A stretch of DNA of 64,000 bases from Oscillatoria sp. FACHB-1407 (GTDB taxonomy: Bacteria > Cyanobacteriota > Cyanobacteriia > Elainellales > Elainellaceae): NCBI RefSeq assembly GCF_014697545.1, contig NZ_JACJSA010000028.1, positions 1 to 64,000 on the forward strand. Direction: 5' to 3'. Positions within the stretch are counted from its first letter, which is position 1. Every line of letters begins with the position of its first letter. The position numbers and the translations under genes were made by a program. Shown here piece by piece: positions 6,564-62,580 of this stretch. The notes beneath the pieces are model-generated. The model did not search any database. It worked only from the letters and a program-made list of their open reading frames with translations, and was not told the DNA's origin.

Positions 6564-6608
6564 CCGTTAATTGTACAACTTAGAGCACGGGTCAGTCTGT
6601 AGAAACGG

Positions 6609-6765
6609 GGCAATCGTTAGTGGTCAATTGTTAATGGTCAGTGGTCAATCGTTAGTGGTCAATCGTTAATGGTCAGTGGTCAATCGTTAGTGGTCAATCG
6701 TTAGTGGTCAATCGTTAATGGTCAATCGTTAATGGTCAATAGTCAGTGTCGATAGTCAATCGTTA
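6609..6765. repeat. Heptanucleotide tandem repeat array (STRR type), first array
   Basis: About 21-22 consecutive 7-base units of the form (G/C)GT(C/T)A(A/G)T, for example GGTCAAT and CGTTAGT, nearly all in phase. Short tandemly repeated heptamers are known from filamentous cyanobacteria. The array sits just upstream of purB. Confidence 0.9.
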
Positions 6766-6949
6766 ATGATGCATGGGCAATTGAGAGGTTTAGATCCCCG
6801 GTTTCTCGCGGAGGCTTCTCAAAGCGATCTGATTCACCTCCTGGAAACTGGGGAATTTGGGAAAAGTCCCACATAGGGCAGTGGGCTTAACAGTCCTCAT
6901 CAGTGCTCATGGTCAAGATCTGAGGTCAATCAACGCTTAACCATGAACG
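6766..6949. other. Spacer between two heptamer arrays with an imperfect hairpin
   Basis: No gene is seen. CCCCGGTTT (about 6796-6804) and AAACTGGGG (about 6845-6853) can pair imperfectly, flanking a GC-rich stretch. It resembles other short intergenic repeats of cyanobacteria. No ribosome site or convincing reading frame is present. Confidence 0.5.
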
Positions 6950-7022
6950 ATCAACTATTGACTATTGACTATCAACTATTGACCATTGACTATCAACCAT
7001 TGACGATTGACTATCAACCATT
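6950..7022. repeat. Heptanucleotide tandem repeat array, second array in opposite orientation
   Basis: About ten in-phase 7-base units of the form TTGACTA / TTGACCA / TCAACCA. They are the reverse complement of the unit type in the array at 6609-6765, so the two arrays face each other. It ends 11 bases before the carB stop codon. Confidence 0.9.
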
Positions 7023-7032
7023 CCCTACTGCC

Positions 7033-10000
7033 TCAACTCATGTAGTCCTGGATAGCTTTGACATCCAGGGGTTGAGATTGGAGGGCACGAATGGCAGCGG
7101 CGGTTGCTTTTGCTCCGGCGATCGTGGTGATCGTGGGAATTTTGTAGGCAAGAGCGGTACGTCGGAGGATGCGATCGTCGATTTGAGCCGCCTCCCCGAT
7201 TGGAGTGTTAAGAATCAGTTGGACTTTTTGGTTTTTGATGGAGTCCATGATGTTGGGGCGACCCTCGTGCAGTTTGAGCACTAGATCAACCTCTAAATCA
7301 TTACTTCGCAACACTTGCCGGGTGCCTTCGGTGGCGACGACATCCAGACCTAGTTCAATCAGATCTCGAACTACGGGGACGGACGCATCTTTGTTGCGAT
7401 CGTTCATGGACACAAACACAGTGCCTTTGAGGGGTAGCCTTTGAGAGGCTGCTAGTTCTGCTTTGGCAAAGGCTTTGCCAAAATCGGTATCGATCCCCAT
7501 TACTTCACCTGTGGAGCGCATTTCGGGTCCCAAAATGGTGTCGGTTCCCGCAAATTTCTCAAAAGGCAGAACGGCTTCTTTAACGGCAATGTGTTTGGGA
7601 ATGATTTCCTGAGTGTAGTTCAATGATTGCAGTGTTTCACCTGCCATGACCCGCACTGCCATTTTTGCCAGGGGAACGCCGATCGCCTTGGAGACAAAGG
7701 GCACAGTCCGGGAGGCACGGGGGTTTGCTTCCAGGATGTAGACTTGATCGCCCTGGACGGCAAACTGAATGTTCATCAGCCCCACAACCTTGAGGGCTTG
7801 CGCCAGTTGAATTGTCCAGTTGCGAATGATGTCGAGCACTTCAGTTGCAAGGGTAATCGCTGGAATGGAGCAAGCGGAGTCCCCAGAGTGAATGCCAGCC
7901 TGTTCGATGTGCTCCATAATGCCGCCGATCACAACCTGTCCCGTCTGGTCAGCGATCGCATCCACATCGACTTCGATCGCGTTCTCCAGGAACTTGTCGA
8001 TCAGGATGGGATGGTCGGGTTCGACCTGCACGGCATAGGTCATGTACCGTTCCAAATCAGCATCTGAGTAAACGATCTCCATGGCGCGTCCACCCAACAC
8101 ATAGCTGGGGCGAACGACAACGGGGTAATTGATGTTTTGGGCAATCTTGAGTGCCTCTTCAAAGCTGCGGGCGATGCCATTGGGAGGTTGGCGGATGTCG
8201 AGTTCCCGCAGGATCTTTTCAAACCGCTCCCGATCTTCAGCAATGTCGATGGAGTCGGGTGACGTGCCCCAAATTTGAGGAATGGAGCTAGCACCCTGGC
8301 TCTTAAGCTGTTCCAGATAACTCTGTAGAGGAACGGCTAACTTGAGAGGCGTTTGTCCTCCAAACTGGATGATGATGCCTTCGGGGTGCTCTGCCTCCAG
8401 GATGTTGAGGACATCCTCTTTGGTGAGGGGCTCAAAGTAGAGGCGATCGCTTGTGTCGTAGTCAGTTGAAACCGTCTCCGGATTGGAGTTGACCATGATC
8501 GTCTCAAAGCCGCGATCGCGCAGAGCATAGGAGGCGTGACAACAGCAGTAGTCAAACTCAATGCCCTGACCGATCCGGTTGGGACCACTGCCCAGGATCA
8601 TGATCTTGCGCTTTTCAGAGGGCAAGACTTCTGATTCCGTTGCGACGGAGGGTTGAGCACTAGAGCTAGCGTCAGAACTGGTCTCAAAACACTCAAAGCT
8701 GCTCTCGTAGGTGGAGTAGTAGTAGGGAGTGAACGCCTCAAACTCCGCTGCACAGGTATCGACGGTTTTGTACACCGGGATGACCGCATGTTGCTGACGA
8801 TAGGCGCGTACCTCATCCTCAGTGGTTTTGGTTGCATAGGCGATTTGGCGATCGCTAAAGCCCTGTTGCTTAATCGCAAACAACTGTTCGCGGGTGAGCT
8901 TGGTCAACTGCGATCGCTTCAAAAACTTCTCAGTCTCGACCAACTCAGCCAGCTTGTCCAGAAACCACAGGTCGATGCTGGTCAGTTCATACACCTCTTC
9001 AACGCTCATCCCCATCTGTAAGGCATGGCGGACGGTAAAGATCCGTTCCGGATTGGGTGTGCGTAAGCCTGCCCGAATCTGCTCCAAGCTGGGCAACTTT
9101 TCGGAGCGATCGCATCCCCATCCGGCGCGTCCTGTTTCGAGCGATCGCAAAGCCTTCTGGAACGACTCCTGGAACGTCCGCCCGATTGCCATTGCCTCCC
9201 CAACCGACTTCATCTGAGTCGTCAGGACGGGACTGGAGCCAGGGAATTTTTCAAAGGCGAAACGAGGAATCTTAGTAACTACGTAGTCAATGGTCGGTTC
9301 AAAACTGGCGGGCGTCTTCTTGGTGATGTCGTTGGGAATTTCATCCAGCGTATAGCCGACCGCTAACTTAGCTGCCATTTTGGCGATCGGGAAGCCTGTC
9401 GCCTTGGAAGCCAACGCTGAACTACGAGATACCCGTGGGTTCATCTCAATGACAATCACCTGACCCGTCAATGGATTGACAGCAAATTGAATGTTGGAGC
9501 CACCTGTCTCAACCCCAATCTCGCGAATGATTTTGATGGAGGCATCCCGTAGCCGCTGATATTCCTTGTCGGTCAGCGTTTGGGCAGGGGCAACCGTGAT
9601 CGAATCTCCGGTGTGAATGCCCATTGGGTCGAGGTTTTCAATGGAACAGATGATGACGACGTTATCGGCGAGATCGCGCATCACCTCTAATTCGTACTCT
9701 TTCCAACCCAGGAGCGACTGCTCGATCAGAATTTGAGAAACTGGGCTGGCATCCAGACCTGACTGAGCAATCTCTTCAAATTCCTCCTGGTTGTAGGCAA
9801 TACCGCCACCAGTGCCGCCTAAGGTAAAAGCAGGACGGATGATCAGGGGGTAAGTGCCGATATCCTGGGCGATCGCCTTTGCCTCCGCCATATTTTCGGC
9901 TAACCCAGAGGGGCACACATCAACACCAATGCGCTGCATCGCCTCTTTAAATAGCTTGCGGTCTTCTGCCATCTCAATTGCAGGCAGCTTTGCGCCGATC

Positions 10001-10344
10001 AACTCTACGCCATACCGTTCCAATACCCCAGTTTTAGCCAGCGTCACGGCTAAGTTGAGGGCAGTCTGTCCGCCCATCGTTGGCAACAAAGCATCCGGTC
10101 GCTCTTTGGCGATGACCTTCTCTACAAGCTCTGGGGTGAGTGGCTCAATGTAGGTGCGATCGGCAATTTCAGGGTCGGTCATGATGGTGGCGGGGTTGGA
10201 GTTGACCAACACCACTTCATAACCCTCATCCCGTAATGCTTTACAGGCTTGAGTTCCTGAATAGTCGAATTCGCAGGCTTGCCCAATCACGATTGGTCCA
10301 GAACCAATCAGCAGAATTTTTTCAATATCGGTGCGGCGAGGCAT
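7033..10344 (-). CDS. carB: Carbamoyl-phosphate synthase large chain
   Basis: Makes carbamoyl phosphate for arginine and pyrimidines from bicarbonate, ammonia delivered by CarA, and two ATP. The 1103 residues show the internal duplication of the family: an N-terminal carboxyphosphate half opening with [20 protein letters not shown], a second half opening with [20 protein letters not shown] near residue 580, each with an ATP-grasp domain ([16 protein letters not shown] and [14 protein letters not shown]), and a C-terminal MGS-like regulatory domain (about 960-1100). ATG start at 10344. carA is not in the window. Downstream lies only the repeat array, so it appears monocistronic. Confidence 0.97.
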
Positions 10345-10797: not shown

Positions 10798-11000
10798 CAG
10801 GGATGATTGATAGTTTTCTCCTTGATCCTAGCCGATCGCCTCCACAAAACTTGAAGAATTATTAACCGCAATCTCAACGTCAGCCTGGACTAAATCTCTG
10901 ACGAATCACATTGACAGACTTTGCCTGATCTCACGCCGAGTTTGCTGTTGCAACCGCTAAAGTCCTTGCTTCAAACTTGGGTTAACGACTGCCCCTGATT
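10798..11000. other. Intergenic stretch, nothing identified
   Basis: Spacer between the zinc-ribbon gene and the MITE-like repeat. It contains no convincing frame, tRNA or terminator. Confidence 0.5.
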
Positions 11001-11170
11001 AACGTCAGTTCGGTTGAAGAGCCCGGCGAATGAATTCGCGGCTACTAGAGCGAAGTCCGCCGACGCGGACTCCGGAAAAGGCAGGATTTGACGAACCAAC
11101 ACAGGTCGGTTTTGTTCCGATAGCGGCGGTTTTAACCGCCGCTATCCTGATCCCGAATTCCCGTTAACTA
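11001..11170. mobile_element. MITE-like repeat, copy A
   Basis: A 170-bp non-coding element closely similar over its whole length to 16601-16769. The left end AACGTCAGTTCGG and the reverse complement of the right end (TTAACGGGAATTCGG) form an imperfect terminal inverted repeat (12 of 15 matches if the preceding TT is included). Internal palindromes are GAATGAATTC, GTCCGCC..GGCGGAC-type arms at 11055-11070, and GCGGCGGTTTTAACCGCCGC at 11123-11142. It carries no transposase. No clear target duplication is visible. Confidence 0.75.
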
Positions 11171-11175
11171 GAAAG

Positions 11176-11484
11176 TTATGGCTGAAGAAACGTCTGCACT
11201 TGGTATCGTTTTGACTCTAGCAATTGGTACGTGTCCCCCATTTCCTGTGAGAATATTTCCTCTGTTTTTTGCAAATCCTCTGGGGGGATCGATTGCCACT
11301 TCTCAAAACTTGCCCAATGTATGACGACGACGACTTCAGTTGGATCGTCAGAGTTAAGCCAAACTTCTTTCCTCAAGAAACCTGAAGTTTTTGCCAGAAC
11401 AGGTGTCCAAATATCCGAATCTAACCGAACAAACTGCTCTCGTAATTCAGAAGCGACTGTAAACCTTAAAAACTCAACAACCAC
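11176..11484 (-). CDS. TIGR03792-like conserved protein (ABM-type ferredoxin-like fold)
   Basis: A 102-residue protein matching my memory of the cyanobacterial TIGR03792 family, related to small antibiotic-biosynthesis-monooxygenase-like dimeric alpha/beta barrels. Seen: VEFLRFTVASELREQFVRLD at the N-terminus, the WTPVLAKTSGFLRKEVW segment and a VVVVIHWASFEKW strand-helix, which fit that fold. No catalytic residue is identifiable and the function is unknown. It stops six bases from the edge of MITE-like copy A, so that element lies directly at its 3' end and could supply its transcript end. Confidence 0.7.
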   Translation of the reverse strand: MVVEFLRFTVASELREQFVRLDSDIWTPVLAKTSGFLRKEVWLNSDDPTEVVVVIHWASFEKWQSIPPEDLQKTEEIFSQEMGDTYQLLESKRYQVQTFLQP

Positions 11485-16200: not shown

Positions 16201-16386
16201 AACACGCATCAGCGTCCATTTGGGTTAAGCCCCTGGCAAATCAATTTGTGGTTACCAGAGCCAAATCTGCCTGCGCAGACTATGAAAAATCAAGGGTTTT
16301 ACCAAGCCGATGCAGGTCGTTTTACTCCTATAGCGGTGGTTCCTACCGCCAAGATCCTGCTCCCGAACTCAGGTTCATCAGGTTAA
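16201..16386. mobile_element. Diverged MITE-like repeat, copy C
   Basis: Aligns along its length with copies A and B but with many differences. Examples: GTTAAGCCCCTGGCAAATCAATTTGTGG corresponds to the GGCGAATGAATTCGCGG arm, CTGCCTGCGCAGAC to CCGCCGGTGCGGAC, and CCGATGCAGGTCGTTTT to CCGACACAGGTCGGTTTT. It ends in CCCGAACTCAGGTT, a variant of the terminal repeat. Any short frame across it is repeat-derived. It is probably an old copy. Confidence 0.6.
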
Positions 16387-16600
16387 TTCGACAAACACTT
16401 AACTTCTAACATTTCTGCGATTCACCCTGTACTCTAGCTTAGAGTTCCCTATACTGAAGCAGAAACCGCACGAATACGGGAGTTAACGTGGAACAATTCT
16501 CAGTGCTACGGAGTCTAACCTTTAGGAGACGTACTGTCTCCCCTGGGGGGTTGGGGGGCTAACCCCTTGGGTAAAAGTCTCATAGCACCTTCTCGTAACG

Positions 16601-16769
16601 AACGTCAGTTCGGTTTAAGAGCCCGGCGAATGAATTCGCGGCTACTAGAGCGAAGTCCGCCGGTGCGGACTACGGAAAATTAAGGTTTGACGAACCGACA
16701 CAGGTCGGTTTTGCTCTTATTTCGGCGGTTTTAACCGCCGAAATCCTTATTCCGAATTCACGTTAACTA
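16601..16769. mobile_element. MITE-like repeat, copy B
   Basis: A 169-bp element nearly matching copy A base for base across its ends. AACGTCAGTTCGG starts it; the reverse complement of its right end, AACGTGAATTCGG, matches that at 11 of 13 positions. It carries the internal palindrome CGGCGGTTTTAACCGCCG. It is non-coding and lies between the FHA gene and the rpoC2 terminator, only a few bases from the latter. Confidence 0.75.
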
Positions 16770-29632: not shown

Positions 29633-29891
29633 AAACGAGGGTATTGCTATCCTGAGTTTGGGCTCAGGATCTTGGCAGTTGAAACCGTGGCATCAAGGTA
29701 AAACCAGTGGTCCCTGGTTCTTCAGAAGTCTGTAGAGGGCGTTCGGCAAAGCTCAGCCGATCCGCAGAGTTATAGCTGCACCTAACCTGGTTGGGACAAG
29801 GGGCTTAAACCTCTTGTTTATCCCTCTTTAATCACTTTGGATGGAGAGTATTTTTCTGCAAGCCTTCTAGCTTCTATCTAGGAATATACTC
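29633..29891. other. Intergenic region downstream of hisD
   Basis: No gene is seen. A weak dyad (AGTTTGGGCTCAGGATC around 29654-29671) might end the hisD transcript, but there is no clean hairpin with a T run. Confidence 0.4.
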
Positions 29892-59499: not shown

Positions 59500-59815
59500 A
59501 TTTTGTTCGGATAGGACATTATGGAGGAAAGAGAGAAGCGGGAAAAAAGAAGAGAGAAGAAGGAAGAGAGGAAGGTTGAACGATAAAGGATGAAGGATAA
59601 GAAGGAAGCGGGAAGAGGCACGATTTATCACGTCTGTACGAGGGGAAAGGAAGCGGGAAAAAAGAAGTAGAGAAGAAAGAGGAGAGAAAGGCTGAAGGAT
59701 AGAGGCGAGAAAGGCTGAAGGATAAAGGATAAAAGAGAAGAGGCGCGATTCATCGCGTCTGTAGGAATGGTAAGGGAAGACAGAAGAGGCGCGATTCATC
59801 GCGTCTGAATGATCA
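59500..59815. repeat. Purine-rich repeat tract with three palindromic units
   Basis: A 300-bp tract with strongly skewed A/G content, GGATAAA/GGATGAA heptamers (59575-59602 and 59686-59732), duplicated AAGCGGGAAAAAAGAAG blocks (about 59536-59552 and 59651-59667), and three copies of an imperfect palindrome, AGAGGCGCGATTCATCGCGTCT (about 59614-59637, 59739-59762, 59785-59807). Frames running through it are repeat-derived. This type of palindrome is common between genes in cyanobacteria. Confidence 0.8.
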
Positions 59816-59856
59816 AGGAGGGAAGGCGGCGATCGCTCTGTGAACAAATTAGGGCA

Positions 59857-62517: not shown

Positions 62518-62580
62518 GGTTCGGTTTAAGCCTGGCGGATGAATTCGCGGCTATCAGAGCCAAGTCCGCCGACGCGGACT
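62518..62580. repeat. Left-end fragment of the MITE-like repeat, copy D
   Basis: Matches the first 60 or so bases of copies A and B: GGTTCGGTTTAAG, GGATGAATTCGCGGCTA, and AAGTCCGCCGACGCGGACT. The similarity stops after the GCGGACT arm, so the right half is absent or replaced. It lies just after the flavoprotein gene. Confidence 0.65.

Follow-up and report, generated by a model that had tools for sequence, protein, structure and literature searches.

The 64,000-nucleotide stretch of Oscillatoria sp. FACHB-1407 analysed here (the window; contig NZ_JACJSA010000028.1, positions 1 to 64,000) holds two closely matching non-coding elements, copies A and B, which raise the question of what moved them and where their hairpin-rich interiors come from. 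A sequence-only reading had placed them at 11001-11170 and 16601-16769, with imperfect inverted ends (about 12 of 15 and 11 of 13 matches) around internal palindromes. Both elements are real, but those limits take in flanking duplication: the alignment of their family (F1), together with the duplications, sets copy A at 11002-11164 (163 bp, plus strand) and copy B at 16602-16763 (162 bp, plus strand), and the TIRs, counted from ACGT inward, exist but are a bit weaker than read (9/15 in copy A, 11/15 in copy B). Copy A has IS982-type ends, ACGTCAGTTCGG.../...CCGAATTCCCGT, and its left flank TGATTA (10996-11001) is a decayed target duplication, 4/6 identical to the right flank TAACTA (11165-11170). 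Copy B lies between the target duplication TAACGA (16596-16601) and TAACTA (16764-16769), which agree at 5/6 bases, i.e., neither copy retains an intact duplication. Short, bounded by TIRs and devoid of a transposase gene, as MITEs are, the two copies differ at about one base in ten, have all four hairpins in common and lie 5.5% (A) and 7.4% (B) from the F1 consensus. A gap of 11 bp separates copy A from the stop codon of the minus-strand ORF that it follows (11176-11484, mechanically called), and copy B lies beyond a terminator-like hairpin, read by eye, downstream of rpoC2. The split rpoC genes, recognised by reading among the window ORFs, and the organisms that share the core of the element point to a cyanobacterial host. 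The window holds three further pieces of the family that the sequence-only reading did not list, namely an old, diverged copy at 16212-16374 (plus strand, flanks GCATCA/TCATCA, 26.5% from the consensus), a truncated copy at 62519-62580 (plus strand) made of the left end and hairpins P1 and P2 with another repeat next to it, and an old right-end remnant at 29651-29686 (minus strand, an inverted match) with hairpin P4 plus the right shell.

F1, with shared inverted ends ACGTSARTTCGG, numbers 46 near-intact copies (median 7.1% from the consensus) in 2.46 Mb of the 8.13-Mb, 66-contig genome, i.e., contig C1 whole, the first 400 kb each of C2, C3, C4 and C5, plus the window. These copies span ACGT to ACGT with point changes (ACGT at both ends in 24/46), so that the ends are consistent from copy to copy. 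Across the genome the TIR pattern has 334 matches as against 3 for the reversed pattern, and at least 40 near-full-length copies were found at 89-100% identity (40 of 333 first-look candidates were scored). Exact target duplications flank 18 of the 46 copies (6 bp in 6, 7 bp in 12; a further copy has 8 bp) compared with shuffled-flank means of 0.42 and 0.38 for the two lengths, together 0.8, and most read T....A, with T first and A last; in the relative G021, 6/9 F1 copies in the loci examined have exact duplications as well. Owing to the position of some F1 copies inside other genome repeats, joining their flanks over one duplication leads to unoccupied versions, i.e., paralogous empty sites within this one genome. 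Joined-flank queries were made for 48 distinct copies (the 55 duplication rows counted alternate pairings of one copy), and 18 of the 48 had a junction-spanning match: clean empty sites, judged by reading, exist for at least six copies (L004, L014, L019, L020, C5:64984 and C4:192802; for L020, e.g., the site at C1:334006-334125, 91% over 121 bases), three were ambiguous (C1:147948, C4:244894, L022), and nine were discounted as the copy itself, other F1 copies, low-complexity sequence, or repeats without a matching duplication (L028, L250). By its ends, duplications and empty sites, F1 is a genuine MITE family, and as a family it bears out the proposal of a transposase-less element moved in trans; in copies A and B the duplications are decayed, and joined-flank searches for paralogous sites in their own genome gave no empty site for either.

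Comparison of the termini with IS ends points to IS982. In G021, a 967-bp IS982 element (L306:1503-2469) is bounded by ACGTGAGTACGG/ACGTCAGTACGG and flanked by a TAGCTA duplication. Its 292-aa transposase passes the NCBIfam IS982 model (260.6 bits, cutoff 130), and the left and right ends of the element resemble the right and left ends of F1, respectively. A second relative, G048, has two IS982 elements with ACGTCAGTTCGG at one or both ends, 12 bases identical to F1, and with 7-bp duplications AATACTA and TTAGGTA. On this match of termini we take IS982 as the source of F1. An IS982 profile matches 25 of 60 genomes at E<=1e-10, G021 included, with 8 over the cut-off, while the Oscillatoria genome yields no IS982 transposase in a protein search at E<=1e-5 or a profile search at E<=1e-10, so the F1 family looks stranded there and is probably now immobile. 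No autonomous F1 element was seen in this genome among 100 of the 334 TIR matches, in 1.66 Mb, or with a masked pattern that gave 15 matches; eight of those loci were read and seven are F1 loci, some with odd interiors holding other nested repeats. F1 resembles an IS982-family MITE in having the ends of the G021 and G048 elements and, like them, 6-7 bp duplications, but differs in that its interior is a REP pair and not an IS deletion remnant, and in that no IS982 was found in the genome.

The internal palindromes had been correctly recognised and resolve into four hairpins, P1 to P4, within a core that occupies 11025-11140 of copy A (plus strand) and has relatives in other shells and beside a Y1 tnpA. 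P1 (11026-11039, GCGAATGAATTCGC) is followed by GGCTAC, which contains the GTAG tag on the other strand; P2 (11054-11071) is AGTCCGC-CGAC-GCGGACT; P3 (11094-11111, AACCAACACAGGTCGGTT), placed by reading, has a broken pair in copy A; and P4 (11125-11140) is GGCGGTTTTAACCGCC, all on the plus strand. In copy B, P3 (16693-16710, plus strand) reads AACCGACACAGGTCGGTT, and its stem is the same as that of AACCGACCTGCGTCGGTT beside the tnpA on contig C8. The layout is that of a unit P1-CTA-P2 with P3 and P4 as its inverted partner, an inverted pair of palindromic units as in a REPIN, and the interior is an inverted pair of two-hairpin REP units, not an IS remnant. The tag is CTAC/GTAG at P1 in the consensus, and at P4 ATAG is commoner than GTAG. 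Pairing was counted in 45 cores of F1 and F3 (see below), drawn from 51 aligned cores after six truncated, inserted or chimeric-end ones were dropped; the 51 were taken from 88 core matches at a query coverage of at least 85%, with F2 excluded. Standard pairs fill 89.9% of pair cells, as against 30-45% in slid controls, and changes on both sides occur at 15/35 pairs vs 8.3 when shuffled. No hairpin-free F1 shell was found in 1.66 Mb. Two 63-bp F1 forms (C1:335370-335432, C5:388764-388826) retain just one hairpin inside the shell, which looks like the outcome of a core collapse between P1 and P4. At C1:443294-443560 and C4:317858-318121 another repeat element with TATAGCC-like ends sits in the P4 loop, and L239, L240, L243 and L245 have nested inserts too.

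The same core, GGCGAAT to ACCGCC, is also found between other ends; what could not be seen in the sequence-only reading is that the interior is a REP/Y1-transposase module in its own right, common to other MITE families. The F2 shell has GGGTGCATCT ends and a 9-bp duplication (at most one mismatch in 2/4 copies), and the F3 shell has CTGAYTGMCTGACAAA ends, likewise with a 9-bp duplication (at most one mismatch in 5/6); its CTGA start and duplication length are reminiscent of IS10/IS50-type IS4 elements. In Nostoc FACHB-110 and FACHB-130 the shell around the core is F4, which has YTCACATCTTGCACC ends and, in 28/30 cases, a 4-bp duplication (shuffled 1.87). No source IS of F2, F3 or F4 was found in the stretches examined. 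A MITE shell is recognisable at one end or both in 78 of the 88 core matches in 1.66 Mb, by a test whose pass rate in random flanks is 0.6-3.6% per pattern; ten are shell-less by this test, three of which resemble decayed F2 by eye. Inspection by eye showed further shells in Spirirestis and in Trichocoleus and others; at one Spirirestis locus (L204) the REP pair is enclosed by GGGAGCATCCCAA...TTGGGATGCTCCC, with the 8-bp duplication GCCTCAAC. Kamptonema and Cylindrospermum have tandem pairs with no shell. At three loci, in Microcoleus, Oscillatoriales and Tychonema (L168, L164, L188), tandem GGCGAATGGAATTCGGGTGAATG repeats adjoin a REP match, apparently at one conserved locus. Against plasmid sequences, a Nostoc core matches four Nostoc records, with at least 80% of the query covered in three, and copy B gives one partial Nostoc match only. 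A 118-bp element of Nostoc FACHB-110 (L262:1501-1618) has F4-like shell ends with the REP core absent, and gave no match in the plasmid search.

Chimeras, identified by eye at C1:131266-131459, C5:173119 and C5:310928, combine one family's shell with another's interior or set two different shells round one hairpin; the first, e.g., has an F3 shell round an F1 interior whose P3 stem is of the F1 type. Their existence suggests that core and shell recombine.

On contig C8 of the same genome, a Y1 tnpA is flanked by the same units, with AGTC/AACC hairpins, three on each side. At E<=1e-15 the gene matches the genome once, and the other five Y1 matches there (L125-L129) have no core match. Its nearest ortholog, in G021 (73% identity), also adjoins a pair. 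Searching public genomes with the unit pattern alone gave 106 stretches, six of which have a Y1 homolog 40-106 bp from the match (55-59% identity; the one at L222 has an internal stop codon). The unit pattern also occurs in a Thermoflexia (Chloroflexota) MAG contig (L197), where transfer, chance or contamination are all possible. More distant Y1 genes have hairpins with AGTC/GACT and AACC/GGTT feet on other stems. Hairpins of this format accompany 7/9 tnpA loci found by protein, compared with 0/84 and 16/519 background 900-bp windows, a suggestive and non-blind count, as the format was defined after some loci had been inspected; the two remaining loci (L274, L278) have no hairpins of the format. 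Fifteen tnpA loci were counted in all, and the six found via the REP pattern are positive (6/6), as expected from how they were found. The P3 stem is CCGAC in 44/46 F1 cores of the Oscillatoria genome (2 ties) and CCCGC in 9/9 of G021, in each case as beside the local tnpA. However, the P3 stem of F2 (3/4) and F3 (5/6) in the Oscillatoria genome is CCCGC, vs CCGAC beside the resident tnpA, which counts against simple tracking of that gene.

The 135-aa Y1 protein has the motifs DHVH, WQ and YIQHQADHH, which by eye agree with those given in the 2018 survey (PMC6006769) for TnpA-Y1 subclass 1.2 (DH[IV]H, WQ, Y---Q--HH). It passes the NCBIfam IS200/IS605 model (75.6 bits, cutoff 55) and falls below the REP-transposase model for canonical RAYTs, NF047646 (31.4 bits, cutoff 80). 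In that survey, subclass 1.2 stands near IS200, is low-copy and mostly cyanobacterial and Bacteroidetes, and is entered as 'no' under REP. Low copy number and cyanobacterial host fit the present gene as well as the motifs do, but whereas the subclass appears there as REP-less, here REP-like units lie on either side.

Might a role at the 3' ends of genes, as a structured RNA or a terminator, have preserved the core, with transposition secondary? The conserved pairing with many one-sided G-U changes, and the position of copies A and B just downstream of ORFs, would suit such a role. However, the window has no Rfam match at the gathering score, the genome has no HEARO match, and recognition of hairpins by a Y1 enzyme accounts for the same pairing, and we hold an RNA or terminator function to be unlikely. 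We give slightly less credence still to F1 being an ordinary IS982 MITE that inherited its interior once, with F2-F4 merely sharing ancient MITE interiors and the hairpins beside tnpA being stray debris with no link to Y1. The F1 and F3 cores are alignable and F2 is similar to both, as ancient shared interiors would be, and on C8 an F1-like stretch with 4 mismatches, near chance but conceivably a decayed end, overlaps the tnpA stop codon. Yet no F1, F2 or F3 end with up to 3 mismatches lies outside the gene there (one 3-mismatch F2 stretch is within the coding sequence), and hairpins of the same format on other stems stand beside distant tnpA genes (37-40% identity) of G004, G028 and, at one locus, G030, genomes in which F1 has no match at E<=1e-6, so that the format follows the gene. 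We regard an IscB omega-RNA (HEARO) or a comparable RNA-guided element as a negligible prospect: such elements occur in cyanobacteria and are of a size similar to copies A and B, but covariance models found no match in the window (gathering score) or the genome (E<=1), and the IS982 ends and duplications largely refute the identity, while the lack of an IscB N-terminal domain in the genome carries little weight given that the same search matched no control genome. No Rfam identity was retained either, another Rfam search having returned five matches, all below gathering scores.

REP pairs in palindromes or MITEs are already known. GTAG REPs are described in cyanobacteria, with Anabaena variabilis GTAG-15 dimers lying within long palindromes (PMC3733652), QMITE2 carries a GTAG REP (PMC10969869), an Anabaena has MITEs of unknown source (PMC3542288), and Y1 enzymes recognise REPs (PMC8266576). 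REPIN/BIME systems with GTAG-tagged REPs and their Y1 gene (REPtrons; PMC3733652, PMC8266576; see also PMC3116915) share with ours the inverted pair of hairpin units, units beside a low-copy Y1 gene and, at P1, a GTAG-type tag; what sets the present system apart is the second hairpin in each unit, the subclass-1.2 motifs of the Y1 protein and the presence of a shell end at 78/88 cores. GTAG-15, compared by description only, is likewise a REP dimer in a palindromic shell in a cyanobacterium, but the available description gives one shell of other sequence and mentions no duplications, whereas here unrelated shells have duplications of 4, 6-7 and 9 bp (PMC3733652). QMITE2 of Coxiella burnetii is, like F1, a MITE carrying a REP, in its case a GTAG REP, but appears in the accessible text as a single family whose REP is described as an IS1111 target (PMC10969869). 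A literature search that covered few subscription journals gave no REP pair in several unrelated shells and no REPs for subclass 1.2.

We consider it highly probable that a REP pair forms the interior of copies A and B, themselves non-autonomous MITEs of the IS982 type, that the Y1 enzyme is the likely partner of the core, and that core and shell have been combined repeatedly. An IS982 transposase would have recognised the F1 ends in trans and duplicated 6-7 bp of target, a mobilisation that belongs to history rather than observation, because no such transposase was found in the genome. The core appears to be the substrate type of HUH/Y1 single-strand transposases, and the 135-aa protein with subclass-1.2 motifs, beside whose gene the units lie, may well be the enzyme acting on it. 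The presence of the REP pair in at least two other MITE shells here, plus those of Nostoc and relatives, would reflect repeated core-shell combination, whether REP units entered MITE centres by the action of Y1, palindromic cores recombined with each other, or both happened; the chimeras speak for recombination, and entry by Y1 would be a candidate route. A wider reading, to which we give an even chance, is that subclass 1.2, an orphan among Y1 enzymes, is a REP transposase that has two-hairpin REPs of its own, and that its REP pair is a standard cyanobacterial passenger and the interior of many unrelated MITEs including F1, a single-stranded and a double-stranded system thereby spreading one DNA. 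Taken as a whole, the analysis explains a repeat found in many cyanobacterial genomes, assigns its outer ends here to IS982, proposes for an orphan subclass of HUH enzymes a substrate open to in vitro testing, and offers a route by which MITEs could acquire an interior and swap ends. If it is right, transposases besides the REP enzyme itself can drive how many REPs a genome has.

Two other repeats were seen in the window. Downstream of a carB-like ORF (7033-10344), positions 6573-7033 hold long arrays of 7/14/21-bp units, GGTCAATCGTTAATGGTCAGT with its inverse ATCAACCATTGACTATTGACT, and a 46-nt repeat (AAGAGGCGCGATTCATCGCGTCTG) occurs three times at 59606-59822.
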